This document shows positions 5,754 to 37,476 of a stretch of DNA of 64,000 nucleotides, in pieces (within the stretch, counting starts at the first letter, position 1; the number at the start of each line of letters is the position of its first letter). A program made the translations under genes and the position numbers. The DNA lies in contig NZ_CP019285.1 of the NCBI RefSeq assembly GCF_000226975.2, positions 3,224,001 through 3,288,000 on the forward strand. The letters are read 5' to 3'. A model generated the notes under the pieces. The model was not told the origin of the DNA. It worked only from the letters and a program-made list of their open reading frames with translations, and did no database searches. Source of the DNA: Halobiforma lacisalsi AJ5. GTDB lineage: Archaea > Halobacteriota > Halobacteria > Halobacteriales > Natrialbaceae.

Positions 5754-5802
5754 AGTGCTCTCCGACCGTGGTTCCTGCTGTTTCTCGGTCGCCGAATCCA
5801 CG

Positions 5803-5820
5803 GGTTTAGATCGACTCTAA
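5803..5820. promoter_or_regulatory. Second, degenerate half-palindrome upstream of the ZIP gene
   Basis: GGTTTAGA-tcgac-TCTAA matches the operator halves seen at 5047 and 5845, but with a five-base spacer and a weaker right half. It could be an auxiliary site for the DtxR/MntR protein or chance; the similarity is limited. Confidence 0.35.
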
Positions 5821-5844
5821 CGGCAAGTCGCGTGAAAAGGAATA

Positions 5845-5864
5845 AGTTTAGAGTTATCTAAACT
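5845..5864. promoter_or_regulatory. Perfect operator-like palindrome upstream of the ZIP transporter
   Basis: AGTTTAGA-gtta-TCTAAACT is a perfect 8-4-8 inverted repeat, 52 bases before the ZIP start codon. It shares the TTAGA-N4-TCTAA core with the site in front of the adjacent regulator gene. The gene it precedes has a leader long enough for a Shine-Dalgarno site, so transcription probably starts near this palindrome. Confidence 0.7.
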
Positions 5865-5899
5865 ATGCGTGTGGGAGTACTATTGCTGTATGCTTCGAC

Positions 5900-5909
5900 G
5901 GAGGTGATC
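5900..5909 (+). promoter_or_regulatory. Strong Shine-Dalgarno sequence for the ZIP gene
   Basis: GGAGGTGATC is a full match to the anti-Shine-Dalgarno end of haloarchaeal 16S rRNA, 7 bases before the ATG at 5917. It decides the start and marks this as a leadered message, in contrast to the many leaderless genes around it. Confidence 0.75.
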
Positions 5910-5916
5910 GGGCCCG

Positions 5917-6849
5917 ATGCGTGATCGGTCGCTCCAGGATCTGCCGCGGTGGCTGCTCGCTATCGGTCCTCTCGTCGTCCTCGCGGTCGTGTTCGGACTC
6001 CTCTCCCTGACCTCCCCATTCGGAGATCTTTCGGCCGGCGAAGGCGCGACGACGCTCGAGATCGTTCGCGTGCTGACGGTGATCGGCTCGATCGCGGGGA
6101 TCGTCCCCGTCGCGATCGGGATGCTCTGGTTCCCGTTCATCCGGAACCTCCCGACCCGGTATCTCCACGGGTTCATGGCGCTGGCGGCGGGCGTCCTCGC
6201 GTTCATCGCCGTCGAGATGGTTGGTGACGTCGCCGACTACGCCGGCGAAGCGAGCAACACGCCAGTCGTGCTCGCGCTCGCGCTCGCCGGCATCGGGACC
6301 ACGTTCGCCGTCATGTACCTCGTCAGCCGGTGGCGCCAGCACGCGGCCGCGGGGGCCGAAAAGAGCGGTCTCGAGGTCGCGTATCTGGTCGCGTTCGCGC
6401 TCGGCCTCCACAGCGTTGGCGAGGGCCTGGGCATCGGCGTCGCGTACGTCCAGGGGAACACCTCCCTGCTCACGCTGCTCGTCCTGGCTTTCATCATGCA
6501 CAACGTGATGGAGGGGCCGACGGTCGTCGCCGCCGTTGCACGCGACCACGAGACGCCCCCACTGTGGCACTTCGCGGGGATGGGGTTGCTCGCCGGCGGG
6601 CCGGTCATCCTCGGCGGCTGGATCGGCAGCATCGCCCAGTCGGCCGCTCTCGCTGCCGTCTTCTTCGGGATGGCGATAGGCGCCGTCCTGCAGGTCCTCA
6701 TCGAGGTCGCCGAACTCATCCGGTTCGACGCGGAGGCCGTGATCACCCGCACCAACGCCGTCACCTTCTCGATGGGCTTTGCCCTGATGTTCCTCCTCGA
6801 GGACGTCCTCACCGCCGTCTTCCTCGAGGGATGGCTGGCTTCCGTCTGA
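5917..6849 (+). CDS. ZIP family divalent metal transporter
   Basis: A 310-residue integral membrane protein with about eight hydrophobic segments. The ZIP signature is clear: HSVGEGLGIG (His165, Glu169) in one helix and HNVMEGPTVV (His195, Glu199) in the next. These form the binuclear metal site of ZIP (SLC39/ZupT/GufA-like) carriers, which bring Zn, Mn or Fe into the cytoplasm. The loop between helices 3 and 4 is short, as in GufA-type members. It sits directly after a DtxR/MntR gene, and both share an operator-like palindrome, so manganese or iron uptake under that regulator is the simplest reading. Confidence 0.88.
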   Translation: MRDRSLQDLPRWLLAIGPLVVLAVVFGLLSLTSPFGDLSAGEGATTLEIVRVLTVIGSIAGIVPVAIGMLWFPFIRNLPTRYLHGFMALAAGVLAFIAVEMVGDVADYAGEASNTPVVLALALAGIGTTFAVMYLVSRWRQHAAAGAEKSGLEVAYLVAFALGLHSVGEGLGIGVAYVQGNTSLLTLLVLAFIMHNVMEGPTVVAAVARDHETPPLWHFAGMGLLAGGPVILGGWIGSIAQSAALAAVFFGMAIGAVLQVLIEVAELIRFDAEAVITRTNAVTFSMGFALMFLLEDVLTAVFLEGWLASV

Positions 6850-6955
6850 CGGCTTCCGAAATGCAGGCGGTCGTTCGACCGCCAAAGGAAACGCCTTAGA
6901 TTCCCCGGCACGAAGGACGAAATCCGGAAGAAAACGACCGGTCTCACCCGCCGGG

Positions 6956-6961
6956 TTTAAG
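6956..6961 (+). promoter_or_regulatory. TATA-like box of the winged-helix regulator gene
   Basis: TTTAAG lies 25-30 bases before the ATG at 6986, the spacing expected for an archaeal TATA box serving a leaderless message. The bases between (acgaataattcg) contain a small dyad, gaat-aattc. Confidence 0.5.
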
Positions 6962-6985
6962 GAATACAATTACGAATAATTCGCC

Positions 6986-7519
6986 ATGTCATCAATCGAA
7001 CTGACCCCGAGCCAGAAGAAGATCTTGCGCGCGTTGACGAACCTCCACAAGGAGTCTGAAGACGCCATCAAGGGCGAGGACATCGCCGAGCAGGTCGACC
7101 GGAACCCGGGGACGATCCGCAACCAGATGCAGAGTCTCAAGGCCCTCCAGCTCGTCGAGGGGGTACCCGGACCGAAAGGCGGCTACAAACCGACGGCCGC
7201 GGCCTACGAGGCCCTCGAGATCCAGCAGATGGACGATCCCGCTTCCGTCCCGATCGAACACGAGGGCGAGCCCGTCGAGGACGTCCTCGTCGAGGAAATC
7301 GATCTCTCGAGCGTCCACCACCCCGAGCTCTGTCGCGCCGAGGTCCATATGCAGGGATCGATGAGCGATATCTCCGAGGACGACGCCGTCACCGTCGGCC
7401 CGACGCCGCTCTCGAAGCTCGTCATCGACGGACGCGTCGACGGCAAGGACGACACGAACAACATCCTCATCCTCCGGATCGAGGATATGGTTGCCCCCGC
7501 GGAAGAGCCCGAGCACTGA
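6986..7519 (+). CDS. Winged helix-turn-helix transcriptional regulator (Rrf2/TrmB-like HTH)
   Basis: A 177-residue protein. Residues 5-70 (LTPSQKKILRALTNLHKES...KGEDIAEQVDRNPGTIRNQMQSLKALQLVEGVPGPKGGYKPTAAAYEAL) form a clear winged helix with a GPKGGY wing. The C-terminal 100 residues (HHPELCRAEVHMQGSMSDI...VDGKDDTNNILILRIEDM) look like a small ligand- or effector-binding beta domain that I do not recognise. Relatives are widespread in haloarchaea and are variously called Rrf2-family or HTH-CBS-like regulators; I see no CBS domain and no Fe-S cysteine cluster. The target is unknown. Confidence 0.7.
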   Translation: MSSIELTPSQKKILRALTNLHKESEDAIKGEDIAEQVDRNPGTIRNQMQSLKALQLVEGVPGPKGGYKPTAAAYEALEIQQMDDPASVPIEHEGEPVEDVLVEEIDLSSVHHPELCRAEVHMQGSMSDISEDDAVTVGPTPLSKLVIDGRVDGKDDTNNILILRIEDMVAPAEEPEH

Positions 7520-7823
7520 TCGGGTCTCGCGTTTCCACTCTCCACCTTTCTGCCGTTTTCCGTTCTTCGCCGGGCGGGTTGCCACTGCTCCGTCAGTCTC
7601 TACGGATTTCCGGTTTCTACACGTCCCGCTGTCTCCCGATTTCCCGCTCTCCCGCGCTCGACCCCTGACCCCTGACACCTGCCCCGAACGGTCCGACCGC
7701 CGCCGACTCGAGACGGACTCGAGTCGGATCCAGCGTGCCCACTGCTGAGAGAGCCGCGAACCTAACCGGGATCGACCGGCACGCTCGGTGAACGAAAACC
7801 GGGAGAAAACTCGAACGCGGCGG
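7520..7823. other. Convergent intergenic gap
   Basis: About 300 bases lie between the HTH gene and the end of gyrA. The strand downstream of the HTH gene is pyrimidine-rich (ctctccacctttctgccgtt), which may assist termination. No gene or strong hairpin is seen. Confidence 0.4.
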
Positions 7824-10328
7824 TTATTCGTCGTCGCCGTCGGCCGCTTCGGAACCGTTTTCATCCTCGACGGTGCCCGCAGGAATGACGTCGACGCTTG
7901 CGACGGCGTCCTCGTCTTCGACCTCCATCACGATTACGCCCATCGTGTTCCGACCGACCGTCGACACCTCGTCGACGCGAGTGCGGACGATCTGGCCGTC
8001 CTCGCTCATCAACACGAGGTGGTCGTCGGGAGAGACGGCCTTGATGGCGGTCACGGGGCCGTTCCGGCCCTCGGTCTTGATGTCGATCAGCCCCTTGCCG
8101 TAGCGGGACTGGGTGCTGTACTCCTCGAGCGGGGTTCGCTTGCCGTACCCGTTCCGGGTGACGGTAAGCAGCGCCTGGTCGTCGCCGTCATTGCCGTTGG
8201 CCGCGACCAGCCCAGCGACCGCGTCGTCGTCCTGGAGTTTGATCCCGTTGACACCGCGGGCGTTCCGTCCCATGGCGCGGACGTCGTCCTCGTCGAACCG
8301 GATCGTCATACCGCCCTCGGTCGCAATCACGAGGTCCTGCGAGCCGTCGGTGACCTCGACGTCGACGAGTTCGTCGCCTTCCTCTAAGTCGGCCGCGATG
8401 ATCCCGGTCGAGCGGATGTTGTCGAACTCCTCGCTGGCAGTCCGCTTGACGTAGCCGTTCCGGGTAGCCATCGTCACGAACTCGTCGCCCTCGAGGGCGT
8501 CGGTGTCGACGATGGCGGTGATGTCCTCGCCGTCGTCCAGATCGAGGATGTTGACCGCGGACTTGCCGCGTGCCGTCCGACCCATCTCGGGGATCTCGTA
8601 GGTCTTGAGCTGGTAAACCTGGCCCTGATTCGTAAAGCACAGGAGGTAGTCGTGGGTGTTCGCCCGGAAGACCGTGGCGACGCGGTCCTCGTCCTTGACG
8701 TCCGCGCCGATGATCCCCTTGCCGCCCCGACCCTGGGGGTCGAACGTCTCGATCGGCATGCGCTTGACGTAGTCGTCTTCGGTCATGACGACGACGACTT
8801 CCTCCTCGGGGATGAGGTCCTCGTGAGTGACGGTCCCTTCGTCCTCGACGATCGAGGTGCGGCGTTCGTCGTCGTACTCCGCTTTGACCTCCCGGAGTTC
8901 ATCCTTGATGACCTCGAGCAGTTCCTGCTCGCTCTCGAGGATCTCCGTCAGGCGCTCGATCTCGGCCTGGACCTCCTCGTACTCGTCCTCGATCTCGGCG
9001 GCCTCCATCGACGTGAGGCTACCGAGTTGCATACGGACGATGTGGTCGGCCTGATCCTGAGAGAAGCCGTAGGCGTCCTGCAGGGCCTCCTTCGCGTCGT
9101 CCCGGGTCTCGCTGTCCCGGATCAGTTCGACCACGTCCTCGGCGTTCTCGACGGCCTTCAGCCGGCCCTCGAGGATGTGGGCGCGGTCCTCGGCCTCGGC
9201 GAGGTCGTACTCGCTGCGTCGGCGGACGACCTCGCGGCGGTGGGCGACGTACTCCTCGAGCGTTTCCTTCAGCGAGAGTACCTGGGGCTGGCCGTCGACC
9301 AGCGCGAGGTTGATGACGCCGAAGGTACGCTCGAGGTGGTTCTCGAGCAGTCGGTTCTTGACGACCTCGGTGTTCGCACCGCGTTTGAGTTCGACGACGA
9401 TGCGGACGCCGTCGCGGTCGGACTCGTCGCGGAGGTCGGAGATCCCTTCGATCTCGCCCTCGTGGACATCCTCGGCGATGCGCTCGACCAGTCGGGCCTT
9501 GTTGGACTGGAAGGGGAGTTCGGTGATGACGATCCGCTCGCGCCCGTTCTTCCACTCCTCGACCTCGAACTCGGCGCGGACTCGGATGCGGCCGCGGCCG
9601 GTCTTGTACGCGGAGTAGATGGCGTCGCGGCCGACGATGTTCGCGCCGGTTGGGAAGTCCGGTCCCTTGACGTGCTCCATCAGGTCCTCGACGGTCGCGT
9701 CGGGGTTGTCGATCAACTCGATCGTCGCGTCGATGACCTCCCCGAGGTTGTGCGGCGGGATGTTGGTCGACATCCCGACGGCGATCCCCGAGGAGCCGTT
9801 CACCAGCAGGTTCGGGAACGCTGCGGGGAGGACGTCGGGCTCTTGCAAGCGGTCGTCGTAGTTCGCGGAGAAGTCGACGGTGTCCTTCTCGATGTCGGCG
9901 AGCAGTTCCTCGGAGATGGGCGACATCCGGGCCTCCGTGTACCGCTGGGCAGCGGCCGGGTCGCCGTCCATCGAGCCGAAGTTCCCCTGGCCGTCGACCA
10001 GCGGGTAACGCATCGAGAAGTCCTGGGCCATCCGGACCAGGGTATCGTAGATCGCGCTGTCGCCGTGGGGGTGGTAGTCACCCATCGTCTCCCCGACGAT
10101 CGAGGAGGACTTCCGGTGTGACGAACCGGAGGTCACGCCCATCTCGTGCATCGCGTACAGGATGCGGCGGTGGACGGGCTTCAGGCCGTCCTCGACGCGG
10201 GGGAGCGCACGACCCGCGATGACGGACATCGCGTAGTCGATGTAGCTCTGTTCCATCTCGTCCTCGATACGGACGTTCTCTACCGCTCGAGCGTCTACGT
10301 CTGTCGGATCGGGTACCTCTGAACTCAT
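7824..10328 (-). CDS. gyrA: DNA gyrase subunit A
   Basis: An 834-residue type IIA topoisomerase subunit. The breakage-reunion domain is complete. The QRDR-like helix reads [20 protein letters not shown], and the catalytic tyrosine is Tyr130 in [13 protein letters not shown]. The coiled-coil arm is around residues 360-490. The C-terminal beta-pinwheel domain starts with the GyrA box [11 protein letters not shown] near residue 525, followed by several YGKRT/GYVKRT-type blades. The protein ends in an acidic tail. With GyrB it forms the A2B2 enzyme that introduces negative supercoils. Its gene follows gyrB on the same strand, separated by a 226-base structured spacer. Confidence 0.97.
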
Positions 10329-10554
10329 GTCTTCATATGGTTCCGTCGGTTAGTTGTCAAGCACTGCGTCCGTGGAGCGGACGCTCGAACGGGCCGACGA
10401 CCGACCCGGAGAGCGCGGTGCGAAGCACCGCGGAAAGGCGAACGGTCGAAGGCCGTGAGCCGAGCGCAGCTTGCTGCGCGGAGGGAAGGGAGGAGTGCTT
10501 TTGATCGAAATTTTGCCGAGGGCCAGGGAAGCTGGCCCGCAGAGCAAAATTTCG
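10329..10554 (-). other. Structured spacer between gyrB and gyrA
   Basis: The 226-base gap is unusually rich in dyads. GGTGC-gaa-GCACC and CGCAGC-tt-GCTGCG are two small hairpins. A compound hairpin at 10507-10553 abuts the gyrB stop codon. The block has the look of the structured, repeated extragenic sequences that follow many haloarchaeal genes. No coding frame is supported. It may separate gyrB and gyrA expression or act as an RNA processing or termination site. Confidence 0.55.
10507..10553. terminator. Compound hairpin directly after the gyrB stop codon
   Basis: The outer arms GAAATTTTGC and GCAAAATTTC are perfectly complementary (10 bp). Inside them GGGCCAG-ggaag-CTGGCCC adds a 7-bp GC-rich stem. 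The gyrB stop is only one or two bases away. On the gyrB strand no run of T follows, so a simple intrinsic terminator is not certain; an RNase processing site or attenuator is as likely. Confidence 0.55.
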
Positions 10555-12489
10555 TTAGATGTCGATCCATTCGGCCTCCGGCGCGTTCTCCTTGATGAAC
10601 TGCTTGCGCGGCTCGACGGCGTCGCCCATCAGCACGGAGAACATCTTGTCCGCGGCGGCCGCGTCCTCGATCGTGATCTGCTTGAGGATGCGGTTCTCCG
10701 GATCCATCGTCGTATCCCAGAGCTGCTGGGGGTTCATCTCGCCGAGACCTTTGAACCGCTGGACCTGCGAGGGACTGCCGTTGCACTTCTCCTCGATGAT
10801 CTCGTCGCGTTCCTGTTCGGTCATCGCGTCGTAGGTGTCGCCGCGATACCGGATGCGGTACAGCGGCGGCTGGGTCGCATAGACGTAGCCGTTCTCGAGC
10901 AGCGGCCGCATGTGCCGGTAGAAGAACGTCAACAGCAGGGTGCGGATGTGGGCACCGTCGACGTCGGCGTCGGTCGCCATGATGATCTTCTCGTAGCGGA
11001 CGTCCTCGAGGTCGAACTCGTCGCCGATCCCCGCGCCGATCGCGGTGATCATGTTCCGGATCTCGTCGTTCTCGAGGATGCGGTCGAGCCGGTGTTTCTC
11101 GACGTTCAGGATCTTCCCCTTGATGGGGAGGACGGCCTGGAATTCGGGGTTTCGCGCCTGCTTTGCGCTCCCACCGGCGGAGTCACCCTCCGCGATGAAC
11201 AGTTCGGCCTCCCCGGGATCTTTCGTCTGGCAGTCGGCCAACTTGCCGGGAAGCGATGTCGACTCGAGGGCCGACTTCCGTCGGGTCAGCTCCTCGGCTT
11301 TTTGGGCGGCCTTGCGCGCCTTCGCGGCCTCGACCGCCTTGTTGATGATCGCTTCGGCGGTGTCGGGGTTCTCCTCGAAGTAGGTGCCGAGGCCCTCGTG
11401 CATGGCGCTCTCGACGATCCCTCGGACCTCCGAGTTCCCGAGTTTCGTCTTCGTCTGGCCCTCGAACTGCGGGTCGGGGTGTTTGATCGAGACGACGGCG
11501 GTCAACCCTTCGCGGATGTCCTCGCCCTTGAGGTTCTCGTCTAAGTCGCCGAGCAGGTCGTTCTCGTTGGCGTAGTCGTTGACGGTCCGCGTCAGGGCGG
11601 TTTTGAACCCGGTGAGGTGGGTGCCGCCCTCGCGGGTGTTGATGTTGTTCGCGAAGGCGTGGATCGAGCCCTGGAGCTCCTCGGTGGCCTGCATCGCCAC
11701 TTCGACCTGGATGTTCTGGGCCTCGTCTTCGAAGTAGATGACCTCCTCGTGCATCGCCGAGCGCGTCTCGTTCAGGTACTCGACGAACTCGCGGATGCCA
11801 CCCTCGTACTCGTACGTTTCCTCGATGATACCCTCCGCGTCGGCCGCCTCCTCGCGTTCGTCCCGCAGGGAGATGCGAACGCCGGAGTTCAGGAAGGCGA
11901 GTTCACGGAGCCGGTTCGACAGCGTCGAGAACGAGAAGTCGTCGGCCTCGAAGATGCTTTCGTCGGGCCAGAACCGGATCTCCGTGCCGGTCTCCTCGTC
12001 GCTCTCCATGTCGCGGACTCGCTCCATGTCGCCGACGGGTTCGCCGGCCTCGAACGCGTGCCGGTAGACGCCGCCGTCGCGTTTGACCTCGGCCTCGAGT
12101 CGCTCCGAGAGGGCGTTGACGACGCTGACGCCGACGCCGTGGAGCCCGCCGGAGACCTGGTAGGACTTGTTGTCGAACTTGCCGCCGGCGTGGAGAACCG
12201 TCAAAATGACCTCGAGCGCGGGGCGATCGTACTCTTCGTGCGTGTCGACGGGAATGCCTCGGCCGTCGTCCGCGACGCTCACCGACCGATCCTCGTGGAT
12301 GGTGACGGTGATATCGTCGCAGTGGCCGGCCAACGCCTCGTCGATCGAGTTGTCCACCACTTCGTAGACCAGATGGTGGAGCCCTCGAGAGTCGGTAGAG
12401 CCGATGTACATCGCCGGACGTTTTCGCACGGCTTCCAGGCCTTCGAGGACCTGGATCTGTCCAGCGCCGTACTCGCTTTCCTGGGACAT
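10555..12489 (-). CDS. gyrB: DNA gyrase subunit B
   Basis: A 644-residue GHKL-ATPase and TOPRIM protein. The N-terminal ATPase domain shows [17 protein letters not shown] (the Mg/ATP asparagine), [11 protein letters not shown] and [15 protein letters not shown]. The transducer domain follows. The TOPRIM region begins near residue 425 with [15 protein letters not shown] and contains [21 protein letters not shown], the DxDxD metal-binding motif. The C-terminal GyrA-binding part ends [16 protein letters not shown]...AEWIDI. The length is the normal short archaeal/Gram-positive-type GyrB. A TATA-like CTTTATTAG at about 12521-12529 (minus strand) lies about 35 bases before the start. Confidence 0.97.
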
Positions 12490-12520
12490 GAGAAACCTGC
12501 TTTCGGGTAGTGGACGACGC

Positions 12521-12529
12521 CTAATAAAG
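12521..12529 (-). promoter_or_regulatory. TATA-like box of gyrB
   Basis: On the minus strand CTTTATTAG lies about 35 bases before the gyrB ATG, consistent with an archaeal promoter and a leader of under ten bases. Confidence 0.5.
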
Positions 12530-12693
12530 CTTCACGTACGCGCGCGAGCGCGAGCGCGGTTCCCACCGAGGGCGAATAAATCGATTCCCCCTGCTATCGC
12601 CGGCCACTCTCGACGGGGTTCTACCCTCCCCGGCGGCTGAATACGCAATGAGAAGAGTCACGGACGCGGGTACGAACGACACGATAGCGGCCG

Positions 12694-13473
12694 ATGTTCG
12701 GACTCCCCTTCGACGCTCCGCTGGCGTTCCTGCTCGTTTCCATCGCCTTCCTTTCGGGGATCGGTATCACCACGATCGGTCCGGGTGGCATCTTCGTGAC
12801 CATCGCGCTCTACTCGCTGACGCCGCTTTCCTCGGGACAGGTCGCCGGCACCGCTCACGCGACCTTCGTCGCCACCGGCCTCGTCGGCAGTGCGGTGTAC
12901 CTCCGCTCCGGCGAGATGCGAACCGGCGAGGGGCGGGCGCTCGCGATCGTTCTCAGCCTCTCGAGCGTCCTGGGAGCGCTTACCGGCGCGTACGCGAACG
13001 CGTTCGTTCCGCGTGCAGTCTTCGGGGCCCTGCTCGGAACCGTATCGATGGCCGTCGGTGGGACCATCCTCTTCCGGGTTCGCCGGGGGTTCAGTCCGGT
13101 CTACGACCTCGAGATCGGGACGTCGACCGGACGGGTCACTCTCGGCGTGCTGGGGTTCGGACTCGGGGTCGCCAGCGGTCTGCTGGGCATCGGTGGCCCG
13201 GTTCTGGCCGTCCCGACGCTGGTTCTGGTCGGCGTTCCCATGCTACTCGCCGTCGCCGTCGCGCAGGTCCAGTCGATCTTCATCGCGGCGTTCGCGACGG
13301 CCGGCTACGCCCTCCAGAGCACGGTGTTGCTCTCCCTGGCGGTCGTCGTCGGGATACCGCTGTTGCTCGGTGTCGTCGTCGGCTGGAAAGTCGCTCACGC
13401 CGTCGATCCGAACCGATTGAAAGTCACACTCGGGTTCGTGATGCTGGGGGTCGGTCCGTACCTGGCGCTGTGA
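12694..13473 (+). CDS. TauE/SafE (TSUP) family membrane exporter
   Basis: A 259-residue polytopic protein with about eight hydrophobic helices in two similar halves. Each half carries the family's glycine/proline-rich segment: GIGITTIGPGGIFVTIALY at residues about 23-41 and GVASGLLGIGGPVLAVPTLV at about 150-169. TSUP proteins move sulfite, sulfonates or other organosulfur/organic anions across the cytoplasmic membrane. It is divergent from gyrB and followed after about 60 bases by a universal stress protein on the same strand. The substrate cannot be told. Confidence 0.85.
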   Translation: MFGLPFDAPLAFLLVSIAFLSGIGITTIGPGGIFVTIALYSLTPLSSGQVAGTAHATFVATGLVGSAVYLRSGEMRTGEGRALAIVLSLSSVLGALTGAYANAFVPRAVFGALLGTVSMAVGGTILFRVRRGFSPVYDLEIGTSTGRVTLGVLGFGLGVASGLLGIGGPVLAVPTLVLVGVPMLLAVAVAQVQSIFIAAFATAGYALQSTVLLSLAVVVGIPLLLGVVVGWKVAHAVDPNRLKVTLGFVMLGVGPYLAL

Positions 13474-13530
13474 GCGGCGTCGGCGATACAGGTACCAGAC
13501 TCAAGGCAGTCGGAGTGGAAAAACTGCCCG

Positions 13531-13953
13531 ATGGCACGCGTCCTCGTCCCGTTCGACGACTCCGATCCCGCTCGCGACGCCCTCGAGTACGCGTTCGAAC
13601 TCTTTCCCTGCGGCGAGTTCGTCGCGCTGACTGTCGTCGACACGTCGTCAGTTCCGTTCATCCCCAGCTCGTCGACCGACGACACCGACGACCAACTCGA
13701 GGAACTGCTCGGGGAAGCGAGCGAGCGACTGGAGACCGCGGGAGCGATCGCAGCCGAGCACGACCGGCCGCTCGAGACGGACGTGGCGATCGGGTCGCCG
13801 GCCCAGCAGATCATCGAGTGCGCCGAGGAAAACGACCTGGACCACGTGGTGATGGGGAGCCACGGCCGGTCGGGCGTCACGCGAATTCTGCTCGGGAGCG
13901 TCGCGGAAGTCGTCGTCAGGCACTCGTCGGTACCGGTAACGGTCGTTCGCTGA
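13531..13953 (+). CDS. Universal stress protein, UspA family
   Basis: A 140-residue single-domain protein. It starts MARVLVPFDDSDPARDALEYAF, the typical first strand and nucleotide-contacting aspartate. It contains VVMGSHGRSGVTRILLGSVAEVV, the ATP-binding G-2x-G-9x-G(S/T) motif, and ends RHSSVPVTVVR. Such proteins bind ATP and modulate stress responses. It lies close behind the TauE/SafE gene and may be co-expressed with it. Confidence 0.9.
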   Translation: MARVLVPFDDSDPARDALEYAFELFPCGEFVALTVVDTSSVPFIPSSSTDDTDDQLEELLGEASERLETAGAIAAEHDRPLETDVAIGSPAQQIIECAEENDLDHVVMGSHGRSGVTRILLGSVAEVVVRHSSVPVTVVR

Positions 13954-29095: not shown

Positions 29096-30733
29096 TTACC
29101 TGGCGAGCTTGATGAACTCGTTGACAGCCGTGTCGCTCCCCGTGACCACGAGCGTGTCGTCGCGTCGAACCCGAAACTCGGGGCCGGGGTTGGTCACCAG
29201 GTCGCCGTTTCGCTCGACGGCAACGACCGTCGCACCGGTACGTTCGCGGATCGCCGCCCCCTCGAGCGTTCGACCGGCAAGGTCGGGCGCGGACGTACGG
29301 ATGATCTCGAACTGCGTCTCCGGCGAGAGTACTTCCTCGTCCTCGAGCAGCACCGTCGAGAGCATCCGTCCCGTGACCGTCGACAGCGCGAGCACGTACT
29401 CCGCGCCGGCCCGGTAGAGCTTCCCCGTGTTCTCGATCTCGTTGGCCCTGGCGATGACCTCGGTCTCGGGTGTGATCCGCTCGAGGACGACCGTCGTGTA
29501 CATCGTTTCCGTATCGTCGTCGAGCGCCAGCACGACGATGTCGGCGTCCTTGATCTCTGCGTCCAGTAGCGTGGTCGGATCCGTGATGTCCCCGACCACG
29601 TCGACGCCCGACCCGTTTTTCTCGGTATCGACCACCGTGTGAGGGAGCCCGGCCTCGTCCAGCGCCGTGGCGACGCTTCGTCCAACGATCCCGTGGCCGG
29701 CGACGACGACCCGTTCCTGCCCGTCACGCAGCCCGTTCGGGGCGATCGTTCGGGACGTAACCTCCTCGAGTTCCTCGTGGCTGCCGGCGACCAGCAGGAT
29801 CGTGTTCCCCTCGATCCGCATGTCGGGCTCCGGCGTCGGGACGAACTCGCCGTTCGACCACGCGCCGATGATCGTCGCGCCGATCCGGTCCCGGAGTCCG
29901 GCCTCGGCGATCGTTTTCCCCGCGAGGTCGCTGTCCCCTTTCACCACGAGTTCCGAGAGTTCGAAGTCGTCGCCGATCTCGATCGTGTCCCGGAGCTCCC
30001 GGGTGATGGACAGTGTCACTTTCTCCGCGAGGCTGTGGCCGAGCACCTGCCGGGGCCGGATCACGTGATCGGCGCCGGCGTACCGGTGGTAAACCGCGTC
30101 TTCTCTGCTTTCGGCGATGCTTACGATGTCGATGTCGTCCCCGAACTCCCTGACCGTCAGGATGACCGAGACGGACCGCTCGTCCGAGACGTCGGCGACT
30201 ACCGCCCGGGCCGAGTCGAGGTTGGCCCGCTCGAACGTCTCTTCGAGTTCGGGGTCGCCGAGGATCGCCTCGATCCCCTCGTCGTTCAGTTCGAGCACGA
30301 CGTCCGGATCCTCCTCGACGATCACGTACGGCACGTCCGCGGCCTCGAGTTCCGACCGAAGGACGTCCTCGCGCGGGGAGTACGAACAGATGATGACGTG
30401 GTCGGTGAGTTCGGTTTCCATCGCGGGACGGTCAGCGATCGCCTCCTGGAACAGGGGAAGGACGAAGATCGGCAGTGCCAGAAACACGAGGAGCACGCCG
30501 GTGAGGTTCATCCCGACGACGAACAGGTTCATCGCCGTACTGTTCCAGTGGTCGGTGTGGCCGCCGAAGCCTGCGGTCGTGAAGGCCTCGATGACGACCT
30601 GTAACGAGTCCGCGAGCGAGGTCTGGTGGCCTTCGAACACGAGCAACGCCCACTGGTATGCCACGGTGTACAACGCCACCAGCCCCACGACGAACGCCGT
30701 CGCCAGCACGATCCGCCGTCGCCATTCGATCAT
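29096..30733 (-). CDS. Potassium channel with two cytoplasmic RCK domain pairs
   Basis: 545 residues. The N-terminus is a 2-helix channel: TM1 (IVLATAFVVGLVALYTVAY), pore helix (LADSLQVVIEAF), filter TTAGFG at residues 52-57, and TM2 (NLFVVGMNLTGVLLVFLALPIF). The filter departs from canonical TVGYG. Two RCK units follow: TrkA_N (HVIICSYSPREDVLRSEL...; the glycine motif is altered to CSYSPRE), TrkA_C (DDFELSELVVKGDSDLAGKTI), a second TrkA_N (RVVVAGHGIVGRSVATALDE) and TrkA_C (FEIIRTSAPDLAGRTL). The architecture is like MthK/GsuK. It converges on trkH with a gap of about 115 bases, putting K+ uptake and a K+ channel side by side. Confidence 0.88.
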   Translation of the reverse strand: MIEWRRRIVLATAFVVGLVALYTVAYQWALLVFEGHQTSLADSLQVVIEAFTTAGFGGHTDHWNSTAMNLFVVGMNLTGVLLVFLALPIFVLPLFQEAIADRPAMETELTDHVIICSYSPREDVLRSELEAADVPYVIVEEDPDVVLELNDEGIEAILGDPELEETFERANLDSARAVVADVSDERSVSVILTVREFGDDIDIVSIAESREDAVYHRYAGADHVIRPRQVLGHSLAEKVTLSITRELRDTIEIGDDFELSELVVKGDSDLAGKTIAEAGLRDRIGATIIGAWSNGEFVPTPEPDMRIEGNTILLVAGSHEELEEVTSRTIAPNGLRDGQERVVVAGHGIVGRSVATALDEAGLPHTVVDTEKNGSGVDVVGDITDPTTLLDAEIKDADIVVLALDDDTETMYTTVVLERITPETEVIARANEIENTGKLYRAGAEYVLALSTVTGRMLSTVLLEDEEVLSPETQFEIIRTSAPDLAGRTLEGAAIRERTGATVVAVERNGDLVTNPGPEFRVRRDDTLVVTGSDTAVNEFIKLAR

Positions 30734-30850: not shown

Positions 30851-33271
30851 TCACCCGGCCACACGCTCCCACACCACCAGCGTCGGCGGCAACACGACCA
30901 CCGCCATCAGGAACGAGTAGATGACGCTGATCGACATCAGGAGTCCGAACTGGCCGAGCAGCGGAGTGATCGCCAGAATCAGCGACGCCGAGCCGCCGAG
31001 GGTCGTCAGCATCGACCCCGTGAGTGCGCCACCGGTCCCACGCAGCGTCGTCAGGAGCGACTCGTAGGCGTCCCCACACTCGTTGTACTCGTCGATGAAG
31101 CGGTGAGTGACGTGGACAGAGTAGGCGACGCCGACACCGATCGTGAGCGACAGCACCGTTCCCGTCAGCGCGTTCAGGGGAAGGTCGAGTATCGGCATGG
31201 TCCCGGCAAGCACTGCAACCGTCACCACGATAGGAAACATGTTCGCAATCCCTAGCGACGCACGCCCCTCGAGTACGTGGTAGATGAGCATCAGGAACAC
31301 CAGGGTGAACACGAGCGCCAGCGCGAGGCTGAACAGCGACGAGTCCAGGATCACCTTCGAGGTTTCGTGGAAGACGACGATATCGCCGGTCGGTGTGGTA
31401 TCCAGTCGGAAGTCGGCCGCCAGTTCCCGGGCGTCTTCCGTGACTTCGGCCTGGGTGGCGTCGGCCTCGACGGTGTAGATGACCCGCATACTGCGCTGAT
31501 CTTCGGTAATGTACTCGAGTGCGTCGTCACGGGCGTCCGATTCGAGGAGGCGATCGAGGACGTACCCGACGTTGCGATCGGGGACGCCGTTGCCGTCGAT
31601 ATCGTTGGCCTCGAGCAGGCGAGCGAACTCGTCGTCGTTCTCCGCGTGGTCGTGCATCACGTCGACGATGCTGTTGCTCTCGGCCCGGCCATTCTCGGTG
31701 ACGATCGTCGACGGCGGATCGTTCCCGGCGCGGTGGACGGACTCCAGGGCGTGATCCTCGTGTATCGGCCCTTCGACGTAGATCGTCACCTCGTCGTCCT
31801 CGCCGCTCTCGAAGGTGTCCTCGAGGTAGTTGATCGTCGCGGTGACGGTGTACTCTTCGGGCGCCAGGGGTTCGGGCATCGTCTCGGCGTAGCCGGGCAG
31901 TTCCTCGGCCGGGAGGAAATCCTCCTCCTCGAAGGTGGTATCGACGGTCGTTGCGTACGCACCGGTTCCAGCGGTCACCACCAGGGCGACGAGTACCATC
32001 GCGATCGGTGCCCGCCGCCCCACGTGTGCACCGACGGGGAGGACTCGCCCGAGCAGCGAATCTTCGGAGCCAAGCGGTGAAGAGCCGAACTCGCGGATAC
32101 CGTACGCGTCTCGCAGTTGATCGAGATACACCTTCGCCGCCGGCAGGAAGATGCCGAAGATAAAGAACGTAAAGATGATCCCGATGCTTGCGACGAACCC
32201 GAACTCGCGGATCGGTTCGAGGTCGCTGGTGACGTTCGCGCCGAAGCCGATGACGGTCGTTCCAGTGACGATGAAGAACGCGATGAGTAACTGCGTGGCG
32301 GCGGTATCCATCCCCTCTTCGATCCCGGCACCGTCGACGCGCTCTTCCCGGTACCGGTTGACGGCGTGAATCCCGAAGTCGATCCCGACCGCGAGCAACA
32401 GGGGCGGGATCGCGATCATCACCATCGAGAACGGGATGCCGGCGTGCCCGGTGAATCCGAACGTCCAGATCACCGCCATGACGAGCGAGACGAGCCCCAG
32501 TACCACGTCGAACGGGTCACGATAGGCCGTAATCAGGAACGCGAGGATCAACACGATGACCACCGGCACGATGATCGCCATCGAGTCCGAAATCACGTTC
32601 TCGAACTCGGTGTCCAGGATGCCGTTCCCGAAGGTAACGATGTTGCCGTCCATCGACTCGACGGTGCTACGGACCCGGTACTGGATCGCCTGTTCGTCGA
32701 CGTCGCTCTCGTGAGTGACGACCGCGATGGTCGCCGATGCCTCGGGTTCGGCGGGACTGAAGTCTTCGCTCAGTGAGGCCGCAAACTCCGGGTTGTCCCC
32801 CAGTTCTCTGACCGTTTCTCTGACCTGGGCGTCGGTCGCCCCTTCGAGCGTTCTGATCTGTTCTTCCCTGGTGTCGGCCGTGGGATCGATCGACCGGGCG
32901 ACCCCTTCCGCGACGCTCGAGCTCTCCGTGACGCGGTGTTCCTCGCTTTCCTCGAGGTAGTGTTGGATCTCGAGCATCCGGAGTAAAGCGTCCCGTGTGA
33001 GGACGTTCTCACCGCGGTGGATGAGCTGTGTCGTCGGCGCGTCCTCCTCGAACGGCGGCTCGAACTCCTCGTTAACCTGGTCCTGGGCGTTCTGCGCGTC
33101 GATTCCGTCAGTGAACGCGTTCAACCCGGCGTCCATTTCGATCGCACTGAGTCCGCCAGCAAACAGCGCAGTAACGAGGAGGAAGACGACGATGACCGTT
33201 CGCGGACGATCGATAATCCAGTGGTTGATCGTCCCCAGTACCCGTTCGACGGACTCCGGTTGGTCGGACAT
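30851..33271 (-). CDS. RND superfamily transporter, MMPL type
   Basis: 806 residues in two homologous halves. Each half has one helix, a large external domain (about 200 residues), then a five-helix bundle. The first bundle reads VISDSMAIIVPVVIVLILAFLI...IPPLLLAVGIDFGIHAVNRYREE and the second FPIVVTVAVLAGTMPI...VLSLTIGVGVAYSVHVTHRFIDEY. The xxGxxFxIHxxNRY/xxGVxYSVHVTHRF segments are the proton-relay helix of MMPL/HpnN-like exporters. It starts six bases after the stop of the exported COG1361-like protein gene and so is its operon partner. The cargo is unknown; lipids or hydrophobic compounds are typical for MMPL. Confidence 0.88.
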   Translation of the reverse strand: MSDQPESVERVLGTINHWIIDRPRTVIVVFLLVTALFAGGLSAIEMDAGLNAFTDGIDAQNAQDQVNEEFEPPFEEDAPTTQLIHRGENVLTRDALLRMLEIQHYLEESEEHRVTESSSVAEGVARSIDPTADTREEQIRTLEGATDAQVRETVRELGDNPEFAASLSEDFSPAEPEASATIAVVTHESDVDEQAIQYRVRSTVESMDGNIVTFGNGILDTEFENVISDSMAIIVPVVIVLILAFLITAYRDPFDVVLGLVSLVMAVIWTFGFTGHAGIPFSMVMIAIPPLLLAVGIDFGIHAVNRYREERVDGAGIEEGMDTAATQLLIAFFIVTGTTVIGFGANVTSDLEPIREFGFVASIGIIFTFFIFGIFLPAAKVYLDQLRDAYGIREFGSSPLGSEDSLLGRVLPVGAHVGRRAPIAMVLVALVVTAGTGAYATTVDTTFEEEDFLPAEELPGYAETMPEPLAPEEYTVTATINYLEDTFESGEDDEVTIYVEGPIHEDHALESVHRAGNDPPSTIVTENGRAESNSIVDVMHDHAENDDEFARLLEANDIDGNGVPDRNVGYVLDRLLESDARDDALEYITEDQRSMRVIYTVEADATQAEVTEDARELAADFRLDTTPTGDIVVFHETSKVILDSSLFSLALALVFTLVFLMLIYHVLEGRASLGIANMFPIVVTVAVLAGTMPILDLPLNALTGTVLSLTIGVGVAYSVHVTHRFIDEYNECGDAYESLLTTLRGTGGALTGSMLTTLGGSASLILAITPLLGQFGLLMSISVIYSFLMAVVVLPPTLVVWERVAG

Positions 33272-33277
33272 CGCTCG

Positions 33278-35356
33278 TTAGCGGTCGGCGTTGGATTCGG
33301 TGCCGGAATCGGCGGGCTGTTCCTCGGAGTCGTCGGCATCGGTTTCGTCGTACTCGAGTCGTTCCCCGGTCGGGCCGGTCCGTTCGACGGAGGGATCGGA
33401 TGCGTCTTCGGGTTCATCGGTGTCGGCCGGCCAGACGTCGGAGTCCGATTCCACGTCGTCAGTCTCGTCGTAGCCGAACGCCGATTCGGCGGCGTCGGTT
33501 CCGGGTGTTTCGACCTGGCTGTGGCCGCCGTAGCCGGTTCGGGTCCCGCTCTCGGCCCCCGAGCCTCCGCTCTCGTCTTCCCCGAGCCGCTTTGCGATCG
33601 GTCCAGGGAGTTCGAGGTCCCCGATCCGCCCGAGCACCGGCACGCCCTCGAGGGCGGCGGCGATCCGGGCGCGGAACCACCAGCAGACCGCCACGACACC
33701 GCCGAGGAGCCCAACCGCGGCGAGGATGGCCTGGGTGGAGATCCCCTCCTCGGGCTCGACCACCTCGAGCGGGATCCGGTACGTGTCGGTCAACTGCGAG
33801 TTGGAGCGCTCGTCGTCGTATCGGAAGTCCATTCGCAGCGGGTAGGTCTGCGGGGTCGCGTCGTCGCTGACTTCGACCTCGAAGGTGACCGTCGCCGACT
33901 CGCCGGGTTCGAGCGACGGGATGAACCCCTCGTCGTCGTGGTTGTCGAGCGGATCGTTCGTGTAGAGTTTCGCCTCGATATCAGTGAGCGTCTCCGACTT
34001 CGTGTTCGTCACCTGTAGCGAGATTTCCTGCGTTTCCCCCACCTTCTGGGTGGCGTTGAGCACATCGACGTCGAACTCGTCGCGCTCGGGTGCGACCTCG
34101 AGCGGGAGGTCGACCGGCTCTTGCGTCGTTCGAACGTCGTCGTGGATATTACGGTACCTGACGTTTGCTTCCATCACCCGCGGACCGGGCTCGGCTTCCC
34201 CGCCGATGCCGACCCGGAACTCGAACGGTGCCGTTTCGCCGGGTTGCAGGTCGCCGACGGCATACTGGGTCTCGCGCGGGTAGACGTTCGATCCGCTGCC
34301 GAGTCCCTCCTCGAGGTTCGGGACGATCCCCTCTTCTCCGTCGTCGACGACGAGAACGGTGTCGTTGACCGGTTTCGGACCGTCGTTGACGATCGTTCCT
34401 TCGATCGTCCCGTCCTCGCCGACGTAGAGGTCGGTCTCGAGGTTTTCGACGGCGAACTGCTGTTCGGGTGCGGTCTCGGCACCGACACGCACCTCACGGG
34501 AGGTCCGATCGACCCCCTCGCCGTCGCGGAAGTCGACGGTCACGGAGACGGGGTACGTCCGCGCGACCGCGTCGGCATCGACGTCCATCGCTGCCTGTAC
34601 CGTCGCGGTTTCGTTGATCTCCCAGTCGCCGACGTACTCCGTGCTGCCGGACGTCTGGAGGTCCGATCCCTCGCTCGTCGGGGCGACCGGCTGGAGCGCC
34701 GCCCCGCCAGCCGGCCCTGTCTGGGACCCCGATTCGTCGGCCGCCGGGGTGATCGTCTGGACGTTCTGGTCCGGCGACTCGAACTGGACGACGGCGTCGC
34801 TCGCGTTCTCGACGCCCGTATTGTTCAGTTCCAGAGTGACCAGTCCTCGGTCACCGACGACGAGGCCGGAGCGAACGTCGACGGCCTCGAACCGCGCTCG
34901 CTCTTCGACGACGATCGTGACAGTCTCGGTGTCGGTGCTGCTGTCGTCCTCGCCGTGTGTGTACTCGATCTCGGCCTCGAGCTCGTACGTCCCGGCCTCG
35001 GCGTCCTCGTCGACGGCGATCGTGAACGACTCGGACAGCAGCGTCTGGGCCGACATCGTCGGAACCGGTGTCTCGTTGGTTTTCACATCGACCGGTGCGT
35101 CCGTTTCGTTGAGTTCGACCGTCACGTCGCGCGCCTCGGTCGGCGGCGGATCACCGACGTCGCTATCGTCCTCGTACGGCGAGGCGGCGTTGCGAATCTC
35201 CAGTTGGAGGGTCGTCTCCTCGCCCGGTGCGACGATGTTTTCCGTGAGGTAAACGTCGAAATCGGGCTCGTCGGAGGCTGAGACCAACGCCGTCATCGGT
35301 GAGCCGACCAGCAGTAGTAGAACGAAACTGAGGGCGACTATACGAGTCCGTCTCAT
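33278..35356 (-). CDS. Exported COG1361-like (S-layer-type, CARDB-rich) membrane-anchored protein
   Basis: 692 residues. The start at 35356 gives MRRTRIVALSFVLLLLVGSP and a Sec signal ending near ALVSAS. The large extracellular part repeats immunoglobulin/CARDB-like units (NIVAPGEETTLQLEIRNA, GLVVGDRGLVTLELNNTG, LYVGEDGTIEGTIVNDGPKPV, QKVGETQEISLQVTNTKSETL), each built around V-G-E followed by a beta sandwich and N-x-G/N-x-K. A single helix near residues 555-575 (ILAAVGLLGGVVAVCWWF) anchors it, followed by a very acidic cytoplasmic tail of about 110 residues. It precedes the MMPL transporter by six bases and is probably its extracytoplasmic partner, taking the role of the periplasmic adaptor. 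Confidence 0.82.
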   Translation of the reverse strand: MRRTRIVALSFVLLLLVGSPMTALVSASDEPDFDVYLTENIVAPGEETTLQLEIRNAASPYEDDSDVGDPPPTEARDVTVELNETDAPVDVKTNETPVPTMSAQTLLSESFTIAVDEDAEAGTYELEAEIEYTHGEDDSSTDTETVTIVVEERARFEAVDVRSGLVVGDRGLVTLELNNTGVENASDAVVQFESPDQNVQTITPAADESGSQTGPAGGAALQPVAPTSEGSDLQTSGSTEYVGDWEINETATVQAAMDVDADAVARTYPVSVTVDFRDGEGVDRTSREVRVGAETAPEQQFAVENLETDLYVGEDGTIEGTIVNDGPKPVNDTVLVVDDGEEGIVPNLEEGLGSGSNVYPRETQYAVGDLQPGETAPFEFRVGIGGEAEPGPRVMEANVRYRNIHDDVRTTQEPVDLPLEVAPERDEFDVDVLNATQKVGETQEISLQVTNTKSETLTDIEAKLYTNDPLDNHDDEGFIPSLEPGESATVTFEVEVSDDATPQTYPLRMDFRYDDERSNSQLTDTYRIPLEVVEPEEGISTQAILAAVGLLGGVVAVCWWFRARIAAALEGVPVLGRIGDLELPGPIAKRLGEDESGGSGAESGTRTGYGGHSQVETPGTDAAESAFGYDETDDVESDSDVWPADTDEPEDASDPSVERTGPTGERLEYDETDADDSEEQPADSGTESNADR

Positions 35357-35404
35357 CACGTGACTGTATTGGCAGCCCACGTATCAACCTTTCTATTACA
35401 AACC

Positions 35405-35414
35405 ACAAGCTTGT
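35405..35414. promoter_or_regulatory. Palindrome between divergent promoters of the MMPL module and TrmB gene
   Basis: ACAAGCTTGT is a 10-base palindrome inside the 83-base divergent spacer. It lies close to the TATA-like TTTGTAATAG serving the minus-strand operon, and before the TrmB-type gene. It is a candidate operator for the regulator; the evidence is only its position and symmetry. Confidence 0.35.
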
Positions 35415-35439
35415 TGTTTCTTTCTCCGGTAAGTCCAGT

Positions 35440-36255
35440 ATGGACGATCACACCGATCTACTGGCCGAACTCGGCCTTTCGAACTACGAGGCGCGGGCCT
35501 ACGTCGTGCTCGCGGGCAACGGTCCGATGACGGCGGACCAAGTCGCCGACGAGTCCGACGTTCCACGCGGGCGGGTCTACGACGTTCTCAACTCGCTGGT
35601 CGATCGGTCGCTCGCGAGAGCCGACGACGGTCGCCCCCGAACGTACGTCCACGTCGAGCCCGAGGAGGCGGTCGCCCGGCTCAAGGAACGACGGCTCGAG
35701 GAACTCGAGGAAGAACGGACAGCGTACGAACGAACGGCGGCGTCAGCGTCCGACGCGCTCTCGGGAATCACGGACGGCGACGACGCGGAGGGGTTCACGA
35801 CGAGCGCGCTCCACGAGGAGGCGGCCCGCGATCTGTTGCTCGAGCGGTTCGCCGCGGTCGACGATTCCATCCGGATCGCCGCGGCGACGGTCGACGTCAG
35901 CCCGGCACTCGAGGCGGCGTTCGCCGATCGGCTCCGGAATCTCCTCGACCTGGGCGTCTCGATCCGACTGCTGGTGACCGAGATCGACCAGGCCGAGGAT
36001 CGAGTCACGGACTTGCTCGAGGCCGGCATGGAGATCCGACGGGCCGACAGCGTCCCGGAACGGCGGTTCATCGTCCTGGACGACGCGGAGGCCTGTCTCG
36101 AGGTCGTCAACCCGGCCGCGCCTGACGAGTTGCTGGCGGTCGTCAACTTCCGGGAGGACGATACGGCCCGCGAACTCGCGGCGAGTTTCGACGAACTCTG
36201 GGCCGACGCCGAAGCGTGGGAGCCGACCGAACGCGACGAAGCAACCGGAGAGTAG
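35440..36255 (+). CDS. TrmB family transcriptional regulator
   Basis: 271 residues. The N-terminal winged helix reads LLAELGLSNYEARAYVVLAGNGPMTADQVADESDVPRGRVYDVLNSLVDRSL, the classic TrmB/PF01978 start. A coiled linker follows (ARLKERRLEELEEERTAYERTAA), then a C-terminal PLD-like/TrmB_C domain (AARDLLLERFAAVDDSIRIAAATVDVSPALEAAF...LGVSIRLLVTEIDQAE). It is divergent from the exported-protein/MMPL operon with an 83-base shared promoter region, so it probably regulates that operon. Confidence 0.88.
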   Translation: MDDHTDLLAELGLSNYEARAYVVLAGNGPMTADQVADESDVPRGRVYDVLNSLVDRSLARADDGRPRTYVHVEPEEAVARLKERRLEELEEERTAYERTAASASDALSGITDGDDAEGFTTSALHEEAARDLLLERFAAVDDSIRIAAATVDVSPALEAAFADRLRNLLDLGVSIRLLVTEIDQAEDRVTDLLEAGMEIRRADSVPERRFIVLDDAEACLEVVNPAAPDELLAVVNFREDDTARELAASFDELWADAEAWEPTERDEATGE

Positions 36256-36351: not shown

Positions 36352-37476
36352 TCAGACGCCGAACGTGGCCCGCAGCATGTCACGGGTACCGGGACCGAGC
36401 CCGACCGCGACGACCGTGATCATCAGCAGGATGGCGTAGCGCGGACTCTCCTCGAATATCTCCTCGTTGAAGATCCAGACGACGAAGACTGCGGCTGCGA
36501 GTTTGACGAGCAGGAACGGCCAGGCCGCCCCCGTCACCTCGGCGATTTCGGCCGGCAGAATCGAGGCAGTGAGGTCGACGATGGCCTCGTTGACCGGGTG
36601 CTTGGGCGCGAGGTTCCGATCGTGGCCGAAGGCGGTCGCCCAGTCGAGTCCGATTACGTTCGCGACGCCGTCGACCGCGTGCGCCCAGATGACGATCGCA
36701 CCCATGAACCGGGTGCCGCGGTTGATCTCGGGTGCGAAGCGTTCGATCGCCGTCCAGGTGAGCCACGTCGCGAGGGTCGCGACCGCGAGCGTCGTCAACA
36801 GCAGGTATGGGTAGAAGGTGGCGTACTCTTCGGTCGCCGCGGTGACTCCGAGGTAGCCGACGGTCAGGGTCAGCAATGCGGTGCCGATGCCGAACAGCGG
36901 GTACTCGTACCCCGATACGTAGTCGTTCCGGTCGAGCCAGACCGAACCGACGACCGCGAACAGCGTCACGAGGAAGACAGTGAAGTAGATCAGCGGGCTG
37001 ATCAGGAAGCCGACCCAGGGGAGATCGATCGCGAGTTCGCCGGTGTAGCGGAACGCGGCGACGTTCGTGTCCTCGACGACGCGGAGCGCCCCGCCGAACA
37101 GCATGAACGGGAACAGTCCGTAGAAGCCCGCACGGTAGCGTTCGATCTCGAGACGCTTGATGAGGAAGACGACGCCGATGACGGCCAGTACCAGCGTCGG
37201 GATGTAGCCGGCGTAGGAGACGAACGTATAGCCGGGTTCGGCGGTCGGCCCCGCGCCGGAGGCTTCACCACAGGGGACCTGTTCGCCGCCGGCCCAGGCG
37301 ACGCAGCTCCAGCCGTGGGCGTCGGCGACAACGGGGCCCCAGTAGTACTGCCAGATGATGTCGACGTACACCCGCTGTGGAAAGCGGGCGGCGAGCAGAA
37401 TCACCGCGGACGCGAGGACGAGAACGGCTGCGGCCCAGACGCGCTCGGGCCCGTACCGCTCGACGGACTCGTACAT
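36352..37476 (-). CDS. DUF63 family membrane protein
   Basis: 374 residues with about nine hydrophobic helices. Conserved DUF63 features are visible: [45 protein letters not shown], and [27 protein letters not shown]. The family is archaeal, integral to the membrane and of unknown function; the histidine/aspartate pairs within helices (AHAVDG, RVVEDT) suggest an enzyme acting in or at the membrane. It stands alone, convergent with the TrmB gene. Confidence 0.85.

Follow-up and report, generated by a model that had tools for sequence, protein, structure and literature searches.

Locus organization

The window analyzed here is a 64,000-nt stretch of the Halobiforma lacisalsi AJ5 genome (contig NZ_CP019285.1 of assembly GCF_000226975.2, positions 3,224,001 to 3,288,000, forward strand), and all feature coordinates are positions within it. 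It encodes a predicted RND-type pump, an exported protein built of immunoglobulin (Ig)-like repeats, referred to below as the partner, and a divergent regulator. The features are listed from the pump to the regulator.

30851–33271, minus strand: RND/MMPL pump, HAE3-like, 806 aa (PF03176, 109 bits in two stretches)
33278–35356, minus strand: exported Ig-repeat partner (COG1361/NEW3-CARDB), 692 aa (conserved ATG; PF10633 and CARDB matches)
33281–33676, minus strand: cytoplasmic tail of the partner, residues 561–692, predicted disordered (pLDDT mostly below 50)
33677–33736, minus strand: C-terminal transmembrane (TM) helix of the partner, residues 541–560 (topology prediction and structure model)
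33752–35266, minus strand: partner ectodomain, about residues 31–535, four Ig-like beta-sandwich domains (structure model) with seven N-glycosylation sequons
35276–35356, minus strand: putative N-terminal signal of the partner, about residues 1–27 (hydrophobic segment 6–24 in the near-identical protein of locus L012; DSSP helix 3–17)
35400–35419, no strand: putative operator, the 20-bp palindrome AAACCACAAGCTTGTTGTTT (conserved, genome-unique site)
35440–36255, plus strand: divergent TrmB-family regulator with a DUF7436 C-terminal domain (PF01978 and DUF7436 matches)

An earlier note, made from the sequence alone, had described an MMPL/RND pump, an exported and anchored Ig/CARDB protein 6 bp away, a divergent TrmB and a palindrome between them, and this anatomy was confirmed throughout; the gap between the partner stop and the pump start is exactly 6 bp (33272–33277). 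For the partner we used the ATG that is conserved in orthologs and set aside an alternative GTG at 35380, which would add 8 codons. A scan of the locus for promoters and terminators returned nothing, as expected for bacterial-type models applied to an archaeal host.

Two flanking genes were considered as parts of the system and rejected. The TrkA-like gene at 29096–30733 is not downstream of the pump in most relatives, and the DUF63 membrane-protein gene (36352–37476, minus strand), convergent after the TrmB gene, is conserved at that position in Natrialbaceae only.

The pump

The pump contains two MMPL halves (PF03176) and a 12-TM RND fold, which place it in the MMPL/RND superfamily. Its best NCBIfam match is HAE3 (TIGR00921), at 232.9 bits over two stretches against a curated cut-off of 351.9; the shorter RND proteins found beside other partners (see below) are nearer to HAE3, reaching 319 bits. 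An AF2 model of the pump (pLDDT 84.9) has its best PDB fold matches in MmpL5/MmpS5, NPC1L1, MmpL4 and HpnN. Three ionizable TM residues, D298 and H302 in TM4 and H720 in TM10, are invariant across 85 pump homologs. Position 716 in TM10 is Asp in 45 of these pumps and Ala in the other 40, including that of the window, so proton coupling may differ between pumps. The counterpart in Halobiforma haloterrestris is 98% identical, and about 143 of 194 Halobacteriales genomes harbor a close pump (best E-value <1e-200).

The exported partner and its tail

Pfam matches of the partner are to NEW3 (PF10633, 53 bits) and CARDB (31 bits), and database annotations of such proteins read “COG1361 S-layer family.” An AF2 model based on 44 homologs comprises four well-predicted Ig-like domains (about residues 31–535), a TM helix (541–560) and a disordered tail, in agreement with the published description of the Haloferax volcanii protein HVO_A0466. 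The PF10633/CARDB match falls on the membrane-proximal Ig domain, which is the best-conserved region of the protein. Partners keep this domain but differ in how many outer domains they have, giving total lengths of 420 to 1520 aa. Partners of 900–1520 aa, with extra Ig-like repeats and an unchanged membrane-proximal domain, occur at L066–L069, L077, L079, L083 and L127. Fold matches of the partner are other Ig or macroglobulin (MG) chains, and whole-chain TM-scores are low.

The acidic tail of 110 residues ascribed to the partner was borne out (33 D/E vs. 7 K/R/H). Because it follows the C-terminal TM segment, it is assigned by predicted topology to the cytoplasmic side; an R-rich flank directly after the TM and the location of all seven sequons in the ectodomain agree with this. 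Tails of 80–139 aa are confined to the window’s Natrialbaceae clade, and elsewhere they are mostly 3–29 aa, which led us to reject the tail as a defining part of the system. Being both clade-specific and cytoplasmic, it is no general part of an envelope adaptor.

A long, acidic, disordered tail on the cytoplasmic side could point to a sensor or receptor, in which the Ig chain binds an outside ligand and the tail passes a signal to the pump or gates it. We consider this improbable, as no signaling domain was found in the partner or its aligned relatives, and the near-complete absence of the tail from homologs outside the window’s clade means that sensing through it cannot be the general function.

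Conservation of the pump–partner pair

We analyzed 92 pump loci, consisting of 80 fetched regions and loci from further searches. At nearly all clade loci, the gene for an exported, C-terminally anchored protein of 420–1520 aa stops no more than about 50 bp from the start of the pump gene. An independent profile count covered 59 haloarchaeal genomes, 40 of which carry a total of 61 clade pumps. The partner lies directly upstream on the same strand for 55 of the 61; it is present in 40 of 40 pump genomes, vs. a strong match in 1 of 19 pumpless genomes, where it adjoins a different RND. Among the six lone clade pumps, five have no partner in the fetched flank, and at L155 the partner is about 4 kb away, past an S-layer gene.

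Pump and partner distances are correlated (Mantel r 0.59; permuted maximum 0.13), with the qualification that permutation leaves the shared species tree in place. Better evidence of co-inheritance is thus given by paralogous pairs within one genome, which stay in their own clades for pump and partner alike. Taken together, the comparisons support a conserved pair whose members were inherited together. The earlier note would have abandoned its proposal had gene order not been conserved or had the exported protein been found mostly without the pump, and for the pair neither outcome was seen. The sampled genomes are related to one another, so that adjacency of functionally unconnected genes, through chance or shared ancestry, might be suspected. 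It is very improbable here: the pairing persists across the order and in paralogous copies, and in other classes of the phylum it has arisen anew with different kinds of exporter.

The window genome has a second partner–pump pair, L021 (G000:C1:2199000-2214000, 5778–10344 and 10922–13630), whose pump is 43% identical to that of the window. It adjoins an S-layer-type glycoprotein gene with PGF-CTERM and GlmS/nucleotidyltransferase-like genes, and has no TrmB gene.

Regulator and putative operator

The regulator contains a TrmB helix-turn-helix domain (PF01978, 74.9 bits vs. a cut-off of 25.6) followed by DUF7436 (72 bits). It is not an equivalog of the characterized TrmB, TrmBL1 or TrmBL2, against which it scores 45–61 bits where NCBIfam cut-offs are 500–650. 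The palindrome at 35400–35419 is symmetric at 18 of 20 positions and is the sole site at up to two mismatches in the 4.38-Mb genome. All 12 Natrialbaceae loci examined carry AAACAACAAGCTTGTGGTTT or a close variant of it, starting exactly 63 bp upstream of the partner ATG, and a looser form, AAACAAC..GTTGTGGTTT, is found at three more divergent-TrmB loci. Since the palindrome precedes the TrmB start codon by about 20 bp, autoregulation through this putative operator is likely.

Conservation of the full three-gene order across haloarchaea, which the earlier note had put forward as a check, was found within the window’s clade; elsewhere the pair is accompanied by a divergent TetR, a downstream TrmB, or neither nearby. 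Across the 92 pump loci we counted 17 with a divergent TrmB, 22 with a divergent TetR and about 40 without an adjacent TrmB or TetR, with a downstream TrmB at 9 clade loci; all of these counts are approximate, as distance thresholds were applied to rough ORF starts. A divergent TrmB, at 17 of 92 loci, was therefore dropped as a constant part of the system. TetR is the usual regulator type of RND pumps, and its frequent presence fits an exporter. The order divergent TrmB, partner, RND recurs at five related loci of one other family of the phylum (L191, L193, L194, L195 and L202).

Partner relatives beside other exporters

Haloarchaeal genomes yielded 26 partner matches that are not beside a clade pump, and 20 of these loci were fetched. 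A shorter HAE3-like RND adjoins the partner at 8 of the 20, and an ABC ATPase with an ABC-2 permease at 9 (5 in same-strand tandem, 4 divergent). Outside haloarchaea, among 19 readable loci, 12 have an HAE3-like RND and one has an MFS exporter with a PadR gene (L206); a GPI-type isomerase gene is the neighbor at five, and at the remaining locus there is no clear partner gene. Partner and exporter genes often share an overlapping stop and start. Counting against an exporter subunit, partner genes without an adjacent exporter were found at L137, L138 and L198, besides the isomerase loci. A tree of 104 partners implies at least six switches of exporter kind, with starred branches alone forcing two each for the ABC group and the short-RND group. 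This count carries caveats: the tree was built quickly, the matches were gathered with a profile made from RND partners, some of the ABC branches are long, and MFS is represented by one case.

At L192, L196, L197, L201 and L203 a partner-like gene lies beside a GPI-type (cupin) glucose-6-phosphate isomerase gene with no exporter. Four of these five loci have a divergent TrmB; the isomerase was identified by Pfam for L192 and by similar N-termini for the rest.

The partner might instead be a structural, S-layer-associated stalk that is merely co-expressed with the pump, the pair maintaining the envelope, e.g., by moving lipids or S-layer components, and not forming one transporter. The RND relatives HpnN and MmpL3 move lipids, and the “S-layer family” annotation of the partners favors an envelope role. 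In a plain count that includes L021, about 10 of the 92 loci have an S-layer-type glycoprotein gene no more than about 8 kb from the pump, and so does L155, where it sits between pump and partner (S-layer-type genes near pumps: L078, L098, L088, L110, L111, L112, L114, L116, L121, L134 and L155). NCBIfam confirms three of these as S-layer genes, with L098 exceeding the HVO_2072-family cut-off. These genes are nevertheless close to a minority of pumps only, and no lipid-biosynthesis genes recur beside the pair. Since the partner family also accompanies ABC-2 and MFS exporters, a transporter subunit is the better fit, and the stalk is left as an unlikely, though the strongest, alternative.

With partner relatives beside several exporter kinds and at least six switches in the tree, an adaptor-like or MmpS-like role is our best reading of the partner. 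A more general proposal can be advanced tentatively, as possible but short of probable: exported Ig-repeat proteins of the COG1361/NEW3 type may be a general extracytoplasmic subunit of archaeal exporters, repeatedly recruited by RND, ABC-2 and MFS systems, a functional counterpart of bacterial adaptors with an unrelated fold and a length adjustable to the S-layer space.

Comparison with known systems

The earlier note knew of no characterized example of such a pair, which does not hold: Sailer et al. (2024; PMC11349517) reported HVO_A0466/HVO_A0467 from Haloferax volcanii and 21 genomes, with proteomics and a pump-gene deletion, and suggested a functional interaction. The window pump is 49.6% identical over 99% of its length to a Haloferax alexandrinus pump that contains both published HVO_A0467 peptides, and the partners of these two are 31% identical. 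By sequence, the window pair is a member of the HVO_A0466/HVO_A0467-type RND pairs; like its namesake it consists of a secreted Ig-fold protein with a C-terminal TM, encoded directly upstream of an RND permease. The Haloferax partner is a substrate of Sec and is N-glycosylated (PMC11349517, PMC8241124). The two loci differ in that the Haloferax pair has a 1-bp overlap, a divergent TetR and no long tail, in contrast to the 6-bp gap, the divergent TrmB with its private operator and the acidic cytoplasmic tail of >100 aa in the window. The pair is thus real and conserved but of a kind already described, and what our results add is evidence suggesting that the partner family serves exporters as a modular subunit. 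New relative to the 2024 report are partner relatives beside a second RND subfamily, beside ABC-2 exporters and once beside an MFS exporter. Our search of open-licence literature found no report of the partner with ABC-2 or MFS exporters, of the operator, of the regulator swaps or of the clade-only tail, and a literature search for COG1361 with COG1033 did not find the pairing.

The system could also be dedicated to siderophore export, the role proposed for HVO_A0467. HVO_A0467 was the most induced protein in iron starvation (44-fold up), with docking to schizokinen (PMC11349517), and MmpL4/5 with MmpS4/5 export siderophores (PMC12501195). The deletion strain was viable and had no iron-starvation phenotype (PMC11349517), the window pump is just 50% identical to the Haloferax pump with a local TrmB, not TetR, and no siderophore gene families recur among the neighbors of the pair. 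We consider such a specialization quite unlikely for the window.

MmpS with MmpL is the closest working parallel of the pair, by functional resemblance and not homology. MmpS is a single-TM, Ig-like accessory protein encoded in the same operon as MmpL; trimer assembly and efflux depend on it (PMC12501195, PMC12803245). As in MmpS5–MmpL5 and MmpS4–MmpL4, the window combines an MMPL-type pump, a single-TM Ig-like (beta-sandwich) accessory protein and an adjacent regulator gene (in mycobacteria, the repressor Rv0678), and an MmpL5/MmpS5 entry is the top PDB fold match of its pump. The differences are that MmpS (~15 kDa) has a single Ig-like domain after its TM, as against about four Ig domains and a C-terminal TM in the archaeal partner, and that the coiled-coil domain of MmpL4/5 is lacking in the window pump. 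The MmpS family is absent from the Pfam matches of the partner and 43 aligned relatives.

The other parallel is with AcrA, MacA and EmrA, where one accessory family serves RND, ABC and MFS exporters from a gene beside the exporter. The suggestion in the earlier note that the partner stands in place of a periplasmic adaptor holds insofar as members of one family are found next to RND pumps of two subfamilies, ABC-2 exporters and a single MFS exporter; it fails for the adaptor (MFP) domains themselves. Unlike the bacterial proteins, the partner is an Ig chain only, of unrelated fold, in archaea that have no outer membrane. No alpha-hairpin, lipoyl or beta-barrel adaptor domain was found in sequence searches with the partner or among its 50 listed PDB fold matches, and identification as an MFP-family adaptor was rejected. 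The partner is a member of neither the MmpS nor the bacterial adaptor families, and the likeness to both is a parallel only.

Proposed mechanism

We somewhat favor a reading of the locus as a two-part, proton-driven exporter with its own TrmB switch. The pump would take its substrate from the membrane or cytoplasm and release it on the outer face; candidates are a hydrophobic or amphiphilic compound, from the family, or a siderophore, from the Haloferax precedent. The partner, predicted to be a Sec-exported chain of four Ig domains, would be anchored beside the pump by its one C-terminal helix. Its membrane-proximal Ig domain and helix may dock on the pump and so assemble or steady it, and the outer Ig domains may extend into the space under the S-layer and guide substrate outward. 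The partner would then do for the pump what MmpS does for MmpL or an adaptor for AcrB, though with a chain of unrelated fold. By binding the palindrome, TrmB would repress its own gene as well as the pair, until a ligand frees it from the DNA.

To our knowledge, how exporters work in one-membrane cells with an S-layer is poorly known. If one Ig-chain family serves RND, ABC and MFS exporters, archaea possess a counterpart to the bacterial adaptors, and the label “S-layer family” would at present cover many transporter subunits. The window’s clade offers a compact test case, with a single pump, partner, regulator and operator in the genome.

RND pumps without a partner

The possibility that every haloarchaeal RND pump is paired was rejected, as more distant RND subfamilies have no partner. 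Some partnerless paralogs (L024, 7269–10559, minus strand; L173; L168) have a coiled-coil insert in the first outer domain, which is possibly an alternative to the Ig chain. The coiled coil of L024, at residues 117–201 and 280–333, recalls that of MmpL5. TrmB-type regulators also adjoin partnerless haloarchaeal RND pumps, downstream at L024, L164, L166, L167 and L173 and divergent at L171 and L172, so the association of TrmB with RND is a wider pairing.
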